From NCBI GenBank assembly GCA_017847885.1, contig JAGAUA010000009.1, positions 1 through 64,000 on the forward strand: DNA of 64,000 nt, given 5' to 3'. The translations under genes were made by a program, and so were the position numbers. Source of the stretch: Oscillospiraceae bacterium (GTDB lineage Bacteria > Bacillota > Clostridia > Oscillospirales > Ruminococcaceae). Positions 19,348 to 59,296 of the stretch are shown in pieces. Numbering within the stretch: position 1 is the first letter of the stretch; every line of letters starts with the position of its first letter. The notes beneath the pieces are model-generated. The model saw nothing but the letters and a program-made list of their open reading frames with translations, had not been told where the DNA came from and did no database searches.

Positions 19348-20652
19348 TCATTCCGAAACGGCGTACATCTCATAATTTTCTGCGATGATCTCGTCAGACA
19401 AGCCATAAACCGTATTTGTCAGCACATACTCGCCGCTGTTGATATATACCTCAATAAGATTAGGGTCAACGTAAATATCAAGATGATCGCCCTCTTTAAT
19501 TTCGGGAGTTTCAAATACACATTTTATCTCGTTATGTCCTGCAAAAACGTTGGAACGATCGGCGGTGATACGGTCATTATTCCTTGAAAGCTTATATCCG
19601 CCGATGTTTATCTCCTCGCCGTTTTTCATATCAAGACTCAGCTTGTAACCGCCTTCACCTGCCTCGCTCGGAGAAGTTATTTTTCGTGTAAACAGCTTTT
19701 CTGCATTCGGGTGGGGACGGAAATAAATATGCCCGTTTTTCACCTCGACAACCCTCGGAATACAGAAAATTCCGCTTCTGTTTTTCTCAAAAGGCTCGGG
19801 CATTCTTGCCCATGCAACTACTACTCTGCGTCCGTCCTTGTCTGTATTGCTCTGAGGTGCGTACAAGTCCTCGCCGCAGTCAAGGAGCTGCCAACTGTCG
19901 GCAATGTGCATTTCTCCCGTTTTCTCGTTAAAGTCGGCAAGAGTGCATATTGCAACAGCATCATAAGGCTTTTCGTCCTTTAAAAATCCCATTGGTGAGA
20001 ATACGACAACGCCCTTTCCGTCCGTTTCAAAATAATCGGGACATTCCCACATCCAGCCCATTCCGTCTTTCTCGGCAAAGTTCAGATATTCCCAATTCAC
20101 AAGGTCGGCGCTTTTGTAGAAAAGCAGACGTCCTTTTTTATTTGCGGTGCTGCCGAGAACCATATACCAAGCATCTTTTCCACGCCATACCTTCGGGTCA
20201 CGGGTGTGATTTTTGCAGCCTATATTTTTGTCCTCAATAGGGGGTATAACGGTGAATTTGTCATTTATATTATCAAAATCATAACCGTTTTCTGAGGTAA
20301 TGGAAAGCTGTGCGGCGGTAAATTCATCATTAAGACAAGCATTGATGTTTTCGGGGTTTTCCTCGGTGTAGTCAACGCCTGTGTAGAAGATATGGAGCTT
20401 GCCGTTATGCTCAACCGCACTTCCCGAAAAGCAGCCGCTGCGGTCGTGTTTTTTGGTGGGATAAAGTGCAATATCCTTATGCTCCCAGTGTACAAGGTCG
20501 GTGCTTACGGCGTGTCCCCAGTGCATTCTTCCCCACTGCGGAGCATAGGGAAAATGCTGGTAGAAAAGATGATACTCGCCCTTATAATATATAAATCCGT
20601 TGGGGTCGTTTATCCAGCCTTTTGGGGCTTTAAGACGAATAATATCAGACAT
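19348..20652 (-). CDS. GH32 beta-fructofuranosidase (sucrose/fructo-oligosaccharide hydrolase)
   Basis: Residues 10-20 contain WINDPNG with the nucleophile Asp16. RDPKVW carries the transition-state stabilising Asp, and MWECPDYF carries the acid/base Glu. A C-terminal beta-sandwich follows to residue 434. No signal peptide is present, so the enzyme is cytoplasmic and acts on imported oligosaccharides. The start at 20652 follows GGAGG by 6 nt; a longer frame upstream is only the tail of the overlapping ATPase gene. The genes overlap by 8 bp, implying translational coupling. Confidence 0.93.
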   Translation of the reverse strand: MSDIIRLKAPKGWINDPNGFIYYKGEYHLFYQHFPYAPQWGRMHWGHAVSTDLVHWEHKDIALYPTKKHDRSGCFSGSAVEHNGKLHIFYTGVDYTEENPENINACLNDEFTAAQLSITSENGYDFDNINDKFTVIPPIEDKNIGCKNHTRDPKVWRGKDAWYMVLGSTANKKGRLLFYKSADLVNWEYLNFAEKDGMGWMWECPDYFETDGKGVVVFSPMGFLKDEKPYDAVAICTLADFNEKTGEMHIADSWQLLDCGEDLYAPQSNTDKDGRRVVVAWARMPEPFEKNRSGIFCIPRVVEVKNGHIYFRPHPNAEKLFTRKITSPSEAGEGGYKLSLDMKNGEEINIGGYKLSRNNDRITADRSNVFAGHNEIKCVFETPEIKEGDHLDIYVDPNLIEVYINSGEYVLTNTVYGLSDEIIAENYEMYAVSE

Positions 20653-21739
20653 AGCAAACCTCCGTATTCTTGTCAAAGAAGTGTACTCTTGAGGGATTGA
20701 AAACAAAATCTATCATGTCGCCAACACCGCTTATCTCATATTTTGATACCCTTGCAATTGTCTGACTGCCGCCGAATGTGAAGTACAGATTGTTTTCATT
20801 TCCCATTACCTCCGCATTTTCCACAACAGCGCTCTTCTTGTCGGCTTCGTGTACGGAAATGCTCTGAGGGTCAAGCTTGATGTCCTCGCCTCTGATACCC
20901 ATTATCATCTCGCCCTCTTTGCCGCCCAGCTTTGACAGTACAGAAGCAGGAACGGTCATAGTTTCGCCGCCCTCAAACAGCACCTTATCGCCCACGAGTT
21001 TCACATTATAGAAATTCATCTGAGGAGAACCGATAAAGCCTGCAACAAACTTATTAGCAGGATGCTCGTACAGCTCCATAGGCTTGCCAACCTGCTGGAT
21101 AACGCCGTTTCTCATTATAACGATACGGTCAGCCATTGTCATAGCTTCCACCTGATCGTGTGTAACGTAAATGGTGGTGCTGCCAAGCTCTCTGTGAAGC
21201 TTGCTTATCTCGTTTCTCATACTTACTCTGAGCTTTGCGTCAAGGTTTGAAAGCGGCTCGTCCATAAGGAAAACCTTCTGATTTTTAACGATAGCTCTGC
21301 CAAGTGCAACTCTCTGACGCTGACCGCCCGATAGATTTTTCGGCTTTCTGTTACGGTATTCTTCAAGACCGAGAATGTTTATCGCCCAGTCGGTCTTGCG
21401 CTTAATCTCATCGGCAGGAACTTTCATATTTTTCAAGCCGTAGGAGATATTCTTCTCAACTGTCATATGAGGATAAAGTGCATAGTTCTGGAATACCATT
21501 GCGATACCTCTGTCACGGGGAAGAACATCGTTCACTTTCTTTCCGTCAATGTAAAGCTCGCCGCCCGTAATATCCTCAAAGCCTGCTATCATACGGAGCG
21601 TGGTGGATTTTCCGCAGCCGGAAGGACCTACAAATGCGATAAACTCGCCCTCGTTTATTTCAAGGTTAAAATCGGTAACGGATTTCTTGTCTGCACCGGG
21701 GTACTGCTTTTCAATATTTTTAAATTCAATAAAACTCAT
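20645..21739 (-). CDS. ugpC: ABC transporter ATPase, MsmX/UgpC type
   Basis: This energises carbohydrate uptake. Walker A is GPSGCGKSTTLRMIAG, the Q-loop is VFQNYALYPHMT, the signature LSGGQRQRVALGRAI, Walker B VFLMDEPLSNLD and the switch His in VTHDQVEAMT. A C-terminal OB-fold region (~residues 240-364) is the part that contacts MalF/MalG-type permeases in this family. I take the start at 21739 (MSFIEFKNI); ATGs at 21748 and 21766 fall inside a hairpin. The SD at 21767-21775 is separated from the AUG by that hairpin. This is the only sugar-ABC ATPase gene in the window. Confidence 0.92.
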   Translation of the reverse strand: MSFIEFKNIEKQYPGADKKSVTDFNLEINEGEFIAFVGPSGCGKSTTLRMIAGFEDITGGELYIDGKKVNDVLPRDRGIAMVFQNYALYPHMTVEKNISYGLKNMKVPADEIKRKTDWAINILGLEEYRNRKPKNLSGGQRQRVALGRAIVKNQKVFLMDEPLSNLDAKLRVSMRNEISKLHRELGSTTIYVTHDQVEAMTMADRIVIMRNGVIQQVGKPMELYEHPANKFVAGFIGSPQMNFYNVKLVGDKVLFEGGETMTVPASVLSKLGGKEGEMIMGIRGEDIKLDPQSISVHEADKKSAVVENAEVMGNENNLYFTFGGSQTIARVSKYEISGVGDMIDFVFNPSRVHFFDKNTEVCYV

Positions 21740-21775
21740 AATATTCATGTTCCCGTTAGGGAACATACCTCCTTT
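21740..21775 (-). promoter_or_regulatory. SD-hairpin-AUG element of ugpC
   Basis: In mRNA sense: AAAGGAGGT (21775-21767), an immediate perfect 8-bp stem ATGTTCCC / GGGAACAT with a TAAC loop (21766-21747), then GAATATT and the ATG at 21739. If the hairpin is excluded, SD-to-AUG spacing is 7 nt. The same architecture occurs at 59224 and 58173 with unrelated stem sequences. Confidence 0.65.
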
Positions 21776-21795
21776 CGATGTTTTGTACGGTTTTA

Positions 21796-21876
21796 AACTG
21801 ACAAAGTCAGTTCAGAAAATTTCGGACGACAGTCCGAAAAACAAAACTCGGATTTGAAAATCTTTGATTTTCAAAT
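21796..21876 (-). repeat. Three stacked perfect hairpins in the malG-ugpC gap
   Basis: Between malG and ugpC lie an 11-bp stem with 3-nt loop (21852-21876), an 8-bp stem with tetraloop (21820-21839, TTTCGGAC/GTCCGAAA) and a 7-bp stem with 3-nt loop (21796-21812, AACTGAC/GTCAGTT). A fourth hairpin follows at the ugpC start. None is followed by a U-run, so they are not simple terminators. Confidence 0.6.
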
Positions 21877-56625: not shown

Positions 56626-58173
56626 TTACTTTAAAATTTCATCTACATTGCAAAGCTCCGCAGGCTCTCCCGTCTGACCGCTTATGCACACATTTGCAAG
56701 GGTCATCTTCTCAACGTTTTCCGCAATGATTCCGCGGCGCGACACCTCTTCGATACCGCAAAGCATTGCAGGATATCCCTTTTCGGCGTTTTCGGCAAAG
56801 GTGACAGCAATGTTTTTCATGCTTATCTCTTCGATTTTTCTTTCGGGCAGACCGATAAAGTATGCCGCGGCAAAATGACAGTTCCTGCACGCTATATTTT
56901 CAAAGGAAAGCTTGCCGATACGTGGTGTGCGCTCATCAACGGGAAGAGGGTTTCTGTCTTGAACATAGCTTGTTCTGCCGTCGGGGTCGCAGAAGTAAAA
57001 GCAGTTTGCGACAAAGGGAGTTTTCACGCCGTCCATAACGATATTTTTAAAGGTGATGCCGTCAATGACCGCCATATCGCCTCTGCCGCGGCGCGTTTTT
57101 ATGCGGAGTCCACGGTCTGTGCTTCGGAAAAGACATTCCTCTGTCAGAACATTTTTTATTCCTGCGGACATTTCGCTGCCAAGGGTCACAGCGCCGTGGC
57201 CGTTTTCCATGATACAGCGGCGGATAATGATATTTTCCGAGGGCACGCCGTACTTTCTGCCCATGTATATCTTGCCCGATTTTAGAGCGATGCAGTCGTC
57301 GCCCAAGGTAAAATGCACGCCCTCAATTCTAACGTTTTTGCAGGACTCAACATCAATTCCGTCTGTGTTGGGGGAATTCTGGGGATTATTTATCCTTATT
57401 GCCGCAAGGGTGACATTTTCGGAAAAATACGGGTGTATCGTCCATGAGGGGCTGTTCATAAATTTCAGACCCAACACGCTTACATTTTTACAGCGCTCAA
57501 TGAACATCAGCCGCGGACGGAACGCGCCGCGCATGACCTTTTCGTTATGCCACCAGTCCTGGTGTGAAGCGTTTCCGTTAATGCTACCGCTGCCGTAAAC
57601 AGTGATATTTTCCGCGTCAACAGCGGTTATTATCCCTGCAAACATTTTCAGCGGATTGCCCTCCCATGTGCCGAGGTTGTATTCGCTTTTTTCATCAAAA
57701 CTGCGTATCATACCGGGCATTATCGGGTGGGTGAAGCGCTCGTTATCGGCGATAAGCTCCGCTCCTGCGGCAATTTCAAGGTTTACGCCGCTTTTCAGGA
57801 AAAGGCTTGTTACCTTGTATTTTCCCTTTGTCACAAGCACGCGGCTTTTTTCGGGGCAGGACGCGATTGCCGCCTGAATGTAGACTGTATCGTCATGCAC
57901 TCCGTCGCCGTATGCGCCGAAGCTTCTTACATCAAGGGTAACAAATTCATATTCTGTGGTAAATGTCGTTTCGGCGGTCTCGTCCCCGTAAGACGCTTTA
58001 ACGGTGTATTCTGTTTCGGGAGCAAGCCCGTCAATAAAGCTTATTCCTCCGCAGAAGGAAATTTCTCTGCCGTTAATTTCGGCGGATATTTTTTTGTCAA
58101 AATCAAAGCTGCCGCAGTCCGTAATTTCTGCCGCGGCAAATCTTGCGCCGCAGCGAATTATGCTTATCTTCAT
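56626..58173 (-). CDS. GH28 polygalacturonase / rhamnogalacturonan hydrolase family enzyme
   Basis: The 515-residue enzyme has an N-terminal Fn3-like domain (~1-78), then a right-handed beta-helix from VTLDVRSFGAYGDGVHDDT. Catalytic residues of GH28 are present: NSPNTDGIDVES, FTLGDDCIALKSG, ENGHGAVTLGSE and GLRIKTRRGRG. There is no signal peptide, so it should act on imported oligogalacturonides, probably as an exo-enzyme. The ATG at 58173 is separated from its SD by an 8-bp hairpin. Confidence 0.9.
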   Translation of the reverse strand: MKISIIRCGARFAAAEITDCGSFDFDKKISAEINGREISFCGGISFIDGLAPETEYTVKASYGDETAETTFTTEYEFVTLDVRSFGAYGDGVHDDTVYIQAAIASCPEKSRVLVTKGKYKVTSLFLKSGVNLEIAAGAELIADNERFTHPIMPGMIRSFDEKSEYNLGTWEGNPLKMFAGIITAVDAENITVYGSGSINGNASHQDWWHNEKVMRGAFRPRLMFIERCKNVSVLGLKFMNSPSWTIHPYFSENVTLAAIRINNPQNSPNTDGIDVESCKNVRIEGVHFTLGDDCIALKSGKIYMGRKYGVPSENIIIRRCIMENGHGAVTLGSEMSAGIKNVLTEECLFRSTDRGLRIKTRRGRGDMAVIDGITFKNIVMDGVKTPFVANCFYFCDPDGRTSYVQDRNPLPVDERTPRIGKLSFENIACRNCHFAAAYFIGLPERKIEEISMKNIAVTFAENAEKGYPAMLCGIEEVSRRGIIAENVEKMTLANVCISGQTGEPAELCNVDEILK

Positions 58174-58210
58174 ATCTAAACGGTTTTCCGTTGGGAAAAC
58201 CCACTCCTTT
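58174..58210 (-). promoter_or_regulatory. SD-hairpin-AUG element of the GH28 gene
   Basis: In mRNA sense: AAAGGAGTG (58210-58202), an immediate 8-bp stem GGTTTTCC / GGAAAACC with loop CAAC (58201-58182), then GTTTAGAT and the ATG at 58173. Spacing without the hairpin is 8 nt. Confidence 0.65.
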
Positions 58211-58221
58211 CGCAGTATATG

Positions 58222-58323
58222 ATACTAATAACCAATAAAACTGTAGACAAAAAATCTTCGCATAATCCATATACGCAAGATTATGCTCGATTTTTTGTAC
58301 AGTTTTTAATTGGTTCTTAGTAT
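58222..58323 (-). repeat. Long (~45-bp) imperfect inverted repeat between malG and GH28
   Basis: The left arm starts ATACTAATAACCAAT and ends GCATAATC; the right arm starts GATTATGC and ends ATTGGTTCTTAGTAT. They fold into a ~45-bp stem with an 11-nt loop and few mismatches. A second hairpin (TAAGGCAGA/TCTGCCTTA) lies at ~58328-58357. They may protect or attenuate the transcript between transporter and enzyme genes, or be a decayed mobile hairpin. Confidence 0.6.
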
Positions 58324-58366
58324 GACATAAGGCAGACCGCCGAAACGCTCTGCCTTAATATTGATT

Positions 58367-59224
58367 TTAGCCTTTTACGCTTCCTGCGGAGATACCGTCG
58401 ATAAACTGGTTCTGAGCGCAGAAGAATACTACAAGAGACGGAATTATCGAAATCAGTGATACCGCAAGAACACGGTTCCAATCGAAGCCTGTGTCAGCGT
58501 CCATGGAAAGCTTAACGAAAATCGTTGCAGGATAACGGGTAGGGTCCTTAACGTAGAGCAGCGGTCCCATATAGTCGTTGGACGACCACATGAACTGGAA
58601 CAGCGCACAGCTTACGATAGCGGGCTTGAGCATCGGGCAGATAACCAATATAAGGGTCTGAAATGCGTTGCAGCCGTCAATTGTTGCAGCCTCGTCAAGC
58701 TCTCTGGGGATACCTCTGAGGAACTGAATGAGCATGAATACGAAGTATGTATCAAATGCAAACAGCGAAGGGATTATAAGAGGAAGGTAAATGGGAGAGT
58801 CTACCCAGCCGAAGCTGTTGTAAAGAATAAACTGAGGAACGTTCATTACTACCTGCGGCAGGAAGAGCGTTGCCATAAGGATAGAGAACAGCGCGTTTCT
58901 TCCGACAAACTTAAATCTTCCGAAGCCGTAAGCTGTAAGGGTACATGAGATAACGGTGAACAGCACCTTAGGAAGAACGTAGCTGTAAGTATTCACCATT
59001 GACTTGAAAAGGTTTATCTTTCCGCCGTAGTCGTTCATTGCGTTTTTGTAACCGTCAAGGGTCGGATGCGCGGTGAACGGGCTGAGGCTGCTGAAAATTT
59101 CGTTATTCGTTTTAAAGGTTGCGCCAACCATCCATATAAGCGGATATATCATTACAAAACCGACAAGAATAAGGATAATATACTTGACAACGGTTCCGAT
59201 TTTTTGTCTTTGAGTATAATTCAT
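58367..59224 (-). CDS. Sugar ABC permease, MalG type (pectin locus)
   Basis: The 285-residue permease has six helices (first: IILILVGFVMIYPLIWMVGA) and the EAA loop RGIPRELDEAATIDGCNAFQ. The C-terminus FIDGISAGSVKG is typical. I take the start at 59224 (MNYTQRQK); the ATG at 59236 lies in the right arm of a hairpin. It is downstream of MalF in the operon. No ATPase gene is nearby. Confidence 0.92.
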   Translation of the reverse strand: MNYTQRQKIGTVVKYIILILVGFVMIYPLIWMVGATFKTNNEIFSSLSPFTAHPTLDGYKNAMNDYGGKINLFKSMVNTYSYVLPKVLFTVISCTLTAYGFGRFKFVGRNALFSILMATLFLPQVVMNVPQFILYNSFGWVDSPIYLPLIIPSLFAFDTYFVFMLIQFLRGIPRELDEAATIDGCNAFQTLILVICPMLKPAIVSCALFQFMWSSNDYMGPLLYVKDPTRYPATIFVKLSMDADTGFDWNRVLAVSLISIIPSLVVFFCAQNQFIDGISAGSVKG

Positions 59225-59264
59225 ACTTATAACCATTTTCCCGAAAAGGAAAATGCACTCCTTT
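59225..59264 (-). promoter_or_regulatory. SD-hairpin-AUG element of the pectin malG gene
   Basis: In mRNA sense: AAAGGAGTG (59264-59256), an immediate 8-bp stem CATTTTCC / GGAAAATG with a 6-nt loop (59255-59234), then GTTATAAGT and the ATG at 59224. Spacing without the hairpin is 9 nt. Confidence 0.65.
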
Positions 59265-59296
59265 CAACATTTTGTGGTTTCAGCAGGTAACTGCGG

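Follow-up and report, generated by a model that had tools for sequence, protein, structure and literature searches.

The start codons of malG and of a GH28 gene, both located in the 64,000-nucleotide stretch of DNA analysed here (hereafter the window), are each separated from their Shine-Dalgarno (SD) sequence by a short hairpin. With a probability of about 0.75, judged from sequence comparison and folding, such units derive from a mobile element that carries its own ribosome binding site (RBS) and whose terminal hairpin would stay folded on the ribosome, thus forming a split RBS. A broader proposition, for which the odds are considered roughly even, is that a mobile RNA-structured family of Ruminococcus-like bacteria targets the SD-AUG gap with a self-contained, hairpin-bridged RBS, each insertion leading to a translation start across a folded stem, and that insertion may recognise initiation sites.

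Hairpin units upstream of malG and GH28

The features of both leaders, all on the minus strand, are the following.

59265..59296, minus strand: putative decayed element remnant 5' of the malG SD, intergenic from the malF stop, in which GAAACCACAAAATGTTG resembles the 3' end of the element core
59258..59264, minus strand: SD AAAGGAG of the malG leader, AAAGGAG being also the SD of nearly all type A copies described below
59234..59255, minus strand: hairpin HP3 of the malG leader, CATTTTCC(T)/(G)GGAAAATG (sequence, folding, family covariation)
59222..59233, minus strand: spacer GTTATAAGT and malG start ATG (59224-59222); the gap from stem to start has a mode of 9 in 53 copies
58367..59224, minus strand: malG-type ABC permease gene (PF00528)
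58204..58210, minus strand: SD AAAGGAG of the GH28 leader (sequence)
58182..58201, minus strand: hairpin HP3 of the GH28 leader, GGTTTTCC CAAC GGAAAACC (sequence, folding, stem-agnostic scan)
58171..58181, minus strand: spacer GTTTAGAT and GH28 start codon (58173-58171), following a stem without ATG
56626..58173, minus strand: GH28 (polygalacturonase-type) gene (PF00295)

Read along the minus strand, the malG leader consists of AAAGGAG, TG, CATTTTCC (59255-59248), the loop TTTTCG, GGAAAATG (59241-59234), GTTATAAGT and the ATG at 59224, and the GH28 leader of AAAGGAG, TG, GGTTTTCC (58201-58194), the loop CAAC, GGAAAACC (58189-58182), GTTTAGAT and the ATG at 58173. Both stems comprise eight perfect pairs, with loops of 6 and 4 nt and gaps to the ATG of 9 and 8 nt, respectively; an extra T-G pair is possible in the malG stem, which would then reach 9 bp with a 4-nt loop. 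This common layout had been described in an earlier note on the same DNA, and its stem lengths, loops and gaps are all verified in the sequence. The stem was also said to follow the SD with no gap, which is right if TG is counted within the SD, as it was there, but not when counting from AAAGGAG, as TG then intervenes.

Folded alone, the malG hairpin displays an ordinary stability (z -0.74), so that its significance lies in its recurrence, position and covariation. Both leaders look like decayed copies of which only the SD-hairpin-spacer unit has been kept. A long and very stable hairpin, unlike the element core, is also found 5' of GH28 at 58238-58305 of the window on the minus strand (z -5.9 with the GH28 leader).

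A complete copy in the same window

A third unit in the window, at 21739-21876, precedes the gene of a MalK/MsmX-like ATPase and belongs to a complete copy of the element.

21852..21876, minus strand: hairpin HP0, ATTTGAAAATC AAA GATTTTCAAAT (sequence, fold)
21776..21850, minus strand: three-way-junction core CGAGTTTTGT ... ACAAAACATCG with HP1 and a second arm (fold z -5.5; match to the model R1 with E 2e-13, this copy having belonged to the training set of the model)
21768..21775, minus strand: SD AAAGGAGG (sequence)
21746..21767, minus strand: hairpin HP3, TATGTTCCC TAAC GGGAACATG (sequence, stem-agnostic scan, fold)
20645..21739, minus strand: MalK/MsmX-like ABC ATPase gene started by this copy (PF00005, PF17912)

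Recurrence, architecture and distribution of the family

A scan indifferent to stem sequence (AGGAG, 0-3 nt, a stem of at least 8 bp, 6-11 nt and ATG) detects 9 units in 428 kb of the window's genome versus a single one in 12 dinucleotide-preserving shuffles combined. The 2.71-Mb genome contains 16 matches to the pattern AAGGAG-N(1-8)-TTTTCC-N(3-9)-GGAAAA, versus 0 in the reversed control, and these copies lie directly 5' of start codons. Reading outward from the units, many of them turn out to close a longer dispersed sequence at its 3' end. The hairpin seen in the earlier note is real, but what was missed there is that it ends a dispersed element, itself inserted 3' of an older SD and ahead of the AUG.

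Type A copies, around 125 nt long with a range of about 110-140 nt, are ordered as HP0 (GTTTGAAAA..TTTTCAAAC), three-way-junction core, SD AAAGGAG as the linker between core and HP3, HP3, about 9 nt and AUG. The core (CGAGTTTTGT ... ACAAAACATCG) is a three-way junction, of 10 bp with one bulged A, that encloses HP1 and HP2, and HP3 is followed by the spacer GTYATAA (about 7 nt of element) and 0-3 target nt before the start codon. Type B copies share HP0 and the core with type A, carry no SD and are intergenic. They are found at loci L160, L161, L163, L164 and L233-L238 of genome G000 and at L353 of G235, and form tandem arrays in some genera, as in C25 of G235 with a 143-bp period.

According to covariance models (R1 and R2, with E-values to be taken as rough), the element family is present in 19 of the 21 genomes of the genus, with 38 matches of types A and B together in the window's genome, and the core is present in 42 of the 298 genomes and 23 of the 126 genera of the taxonomic family. 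The Rfam 15 covariance models gave no match for the window or the element copies. Named records with the element include Ruminococcus sp., among them Ruminococcus sp. Marseille-P6503, Oscillospiraceae and Clostridia, and are mostly metagenome-assembled genomes, several of them from deer or goat gut.

Some variations were observed around the core. Its HP1 loop carries added hairpins at L079, L096 and L103 (e.g. ATCGAGTGAAACTCGAT), as if modular additions were tolerated. In other genera (L299, L309, L345, L323, L354), the core stands before short ORFs starting like MSVIEVL..., which by eye resemble small holin-like membrane peptides, and at some of these copies the SD lies in or beside a CCTCC..GGAGG hairpin. 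Besides, an identical sequence, ACCACAAAAAATCGGAGGAAGAAAATGAAAGCAAGACAG, occurs at or near several contig ends (L141, L143, L145, L148) and is probably an insertion sequence breaking the assembly.

Conserved structure and variable sequence

The HP3 stems are unrelated in sequence (CATTTTCC, GGTTTTCC, TATGTTCCC, TACGCTTC, TGCTTGC, ATGCTCC, GGCACCC). In an alignment of core and HP3 from 31 copies, 94.8% of the cells are paired, slid registers giving at most 53%, and 13 of the 32 pairs show changes on both sides. Double-changed cells number 57 in this alignment versus 14.6 after shuffling, and 93 versus 22.7 for the core across other genera, counts that are inflated by the kinship among copies and are thus taken as support, not as probabilities. 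The DUF1385 unit is confined to two sister species; here, two substitutions in the stem move the pairing to another register, in which the stem is again perfect. Unrelated stems that stay paired and double changes in excess of shuffles support what the earlier note had supposed, namely that structure, not sequence, is conserved in the SD-hairpin-AUG unit. Such covariation can also be maintained by hairpins that act in mobility at the DNA level.

In some species (L043, L053, L058, L066, L086 and others), a GTTAG before the SD is complementary to the HP3 loop CTAAC; this may reflect a pseudoknot or an alternative fold, or only the shared descent of recent copies.

Position relative to genes

The start codon stands 7-10 nt after HP3 in 43 of the 53 parsed copies, and exactly 9 nt after it in 30, an ORF start being found in such a range at 5% of random positions. 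A broken SD (AAAGAAG, AAAGTAG) is seen in two copies that look intact but serve no gene start. Genes 3' of the copies include hisA, obgE and those for an M16 peptidase, a kinase, MATE, a sortase, YbaK and MobC, among others. In view of this diversity, a specificity for sugar operons, to which the earlier note had tied the class, was rejected.

Empty sites and insertion

Orthologous sites lacking the element exist for several genes. In the sister species G003, whose malG ortholog is 89% identical, nothing but a plain SD, GGGGGTTAATAT, separates the malF stop from the ATG. The stem and its distance to the AUG, whose loss from orthologs the earlier note had taken to count against it, are thus literally absent there, the reason being that this species lacks the element altogether at malG and uses a plain SD. 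The M16 peptidase gene has the element in the window's genome and a plain leader, typically GGAAAGGAG...ATG, in 17 relatives; GH36 shows AAGGAGGTAAA, the element and TTATG versus AAGGAGGTTACTATG in G001; the obgE unit is found in 2 of 18 species, with a plain leader in the others; and orthologs of YbaK and MATE without the element are also known. Element-free sites of malG, GH36, M16, MATE and YbaK thus consist of a plain leader, mostly with an ordinary RBS. No target duplication is evident at the insertion sites.

In 77% of 52 copies, the 18 nt preceding HP0 contain an older SD-like motif, compared with 8% and 19% in adjacent upstream intervals and 32% in shuffles. With the element removed and its flanks joined, the start codon follows this older SD at a distance of 4-8 nt in 34 of 50 joined sequences. 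As an older SD precedes HP0 in most copies and the joined flanks recreate an ordinary RBS, the element sits between the original SD of the gene and its AUG.

From these sequence comparisons, the dispersed element is probably mobile. The location of type A in the SD-AUG gap may result from targeted insertion or from a selection sparing only such insertions. Genes for Y1 transposases number 0 in G000, G002 and G011, whereas they are present in G004 and G020, which have no R1 match, and in G016. A RAYT/IS200-type Y1 transposase was accordingly rejected as the driver, being absent from element-rich genomes, and the search for Y1 transposases in the element-rich genomes yielded no mobilising enzyme.

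Spacing and proposed initiation across the folded hairpin

AAAGGA and AUG lie 26-39 nt apart in total, mostly 30-38 nt. With the hairpin excised, the mode of this distance is 12 nt, versus 10 nt in ordinary genes of the window's genome, in agreement with the earlier claim that spacing is near-normal only without the hairpin. Type A relatives devoid of HP3, six copies from two genomes of two other genera, have SD-AUG distances of 7, 8, 11, 12, 12 and 12 nt, mostly the hairpin-excised spacing. Initiation across a folded stem, already suggested in the earlier note, is the best reading. The predicted pairing probability of HP3 is 0.93, and the mean unpaired probability of the SD is 0.60.

In the proposed mechanism, the element would occupy the gap between the original SD of a gene and its start codon and would bring a substitute SD as a single-stranded linker leading from the three-way-junction core to the terminal HP3. 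Translation of the host gene would then start from the SD of the element with HP3 folded out, the ribosome seeing an effective SD-AUG distance of 10-14 nt instead of about 30-38 nt. Decayed copies such as those of malG and GH28 would have lost most of the element while keeping SD, hairpin and spacing, presumably since the gene, deprived of its old SD, depends on the unit.

HP3 might instead be only a right-end structure for movement, at the DNA or RNA level, that the ribosome tolerates or unwinds and that has no translational role. Such a function would suit the SD-less type B copies, which lie in intergenic DNA and carry different tails in the corresponding position, and palindromic repeats can covary without any RNA role. 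It is nevertheless unlikely, since immobile-looking decayed copies (GH28, DUF1385, obgE in G001) keep the SD, a perfect stem and the spacing although the core is lost, relatives without HP3 fit the excised spacing, and unwinding HP3 would leave the SD about 30-38 nt from the AUG.

Even less probable is a regulatory switch, in which a protein, an RNA or temperature would open or close the stem and thereby regulate a group of genes. The unit is indeed common to many genes, and a stable stem adjoining the SD is a common layout of switches, but the downstream genes share no pathway, the unrelated stem sequences leave no conserved binding site, and a conserved alternative pairing is not demonstrated. 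The switch by stem opening that the earlier note had put forward finds no positive evidence.

Many copies carry an ATG in the 3' arm of HP3 that frequently shares the reading frame of the downstream ATG (MVII-M...) and could serve as an alternative start. That it would be the true start, masked by the hairpin, is very improbable and is excluded where this ATG is absent (GH28, TrmH, DUF1385 and some other stems) or out of frame (the YbaK and histidine kinase copies); as, moreover, the homologous proteins at empty sites begin at the equivalent of the downstream ATG, the latter is likely the start codon.

Comparison with known systems

The split RBS proposed here has a precedent in T4 genes 25 and 38, in which a hairpin between SD and AUG cuts the spacing from 27 to 11 and from 22 to 5 nt, respectively, a layout that the ribosome does use (PMC3014915). 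The reduction would be from about 30-38 to 10-14 nt in the present case. Whereas the T4 examples are single phage leaders, the unit described here belongs to a dispersed element found in front of dozens of chromosomal genes unrelated to one another, and its stem sequences are unrelated too.

MIRUs, the mycobacterial interspersed repetitive units, are short dispersed repeats that seem to be mobile and that, inserted at start codons, hardly affect the gene (PMC12548453), and the element resembles them by its dispersed copies at start codons and its orthologous empty sites. However, a MIRU keeps expression by an ORF inside the repeat to which the gene is coupled, whereas the element is structured and supplies an SD of its own, together with a hairpin that bridges the distance to the AUG. 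In the copies read by eye, no internal ORF running into the gene is evident, except for a few codons from the stem ATG.

Type B is reminiscent of REP/BIME sequences, which are dispersed, sometimes tandem, palindromic intergenic repeats. The REP/RAYT system differs in that element-rich genomes have no Y1 transposase genes and that type A stands at start codons with an SD. The hairpin of E. coli thrS lies upstream of the SD, between the SD and a distal binding region. It differs in this from HP3, which stands between SD and AUG. The thrS split RBS is comparable in that its hairpin domain is accommodated on the ribosome and stays folded there (PMC3936740), as proposed for HP3. No described repeat of this kind was found in the searched open-access literature, and the combination of two known kinds, a T4-type split RBS and MIRU-like behaviour, is to our knowledge undescribed.

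Significance

Initiation across a folded stem has so far been represented by few single cases. With its dozens of copies, unrelated stems, matched empty sites and hairpin-less relatives, the family offers a natural experiment on how far the 30S subunit can accommodate structure placed in the SD-AUG interval. It raises the question of how the element finds the SD-AUG gap. It also suggests that, beside that of MIRUs, there is a second route by which repeats enter operons at start codons without silencing genes, and the element may thus show how mobile DNA can interrupt genes and yet leave them unsilenced.
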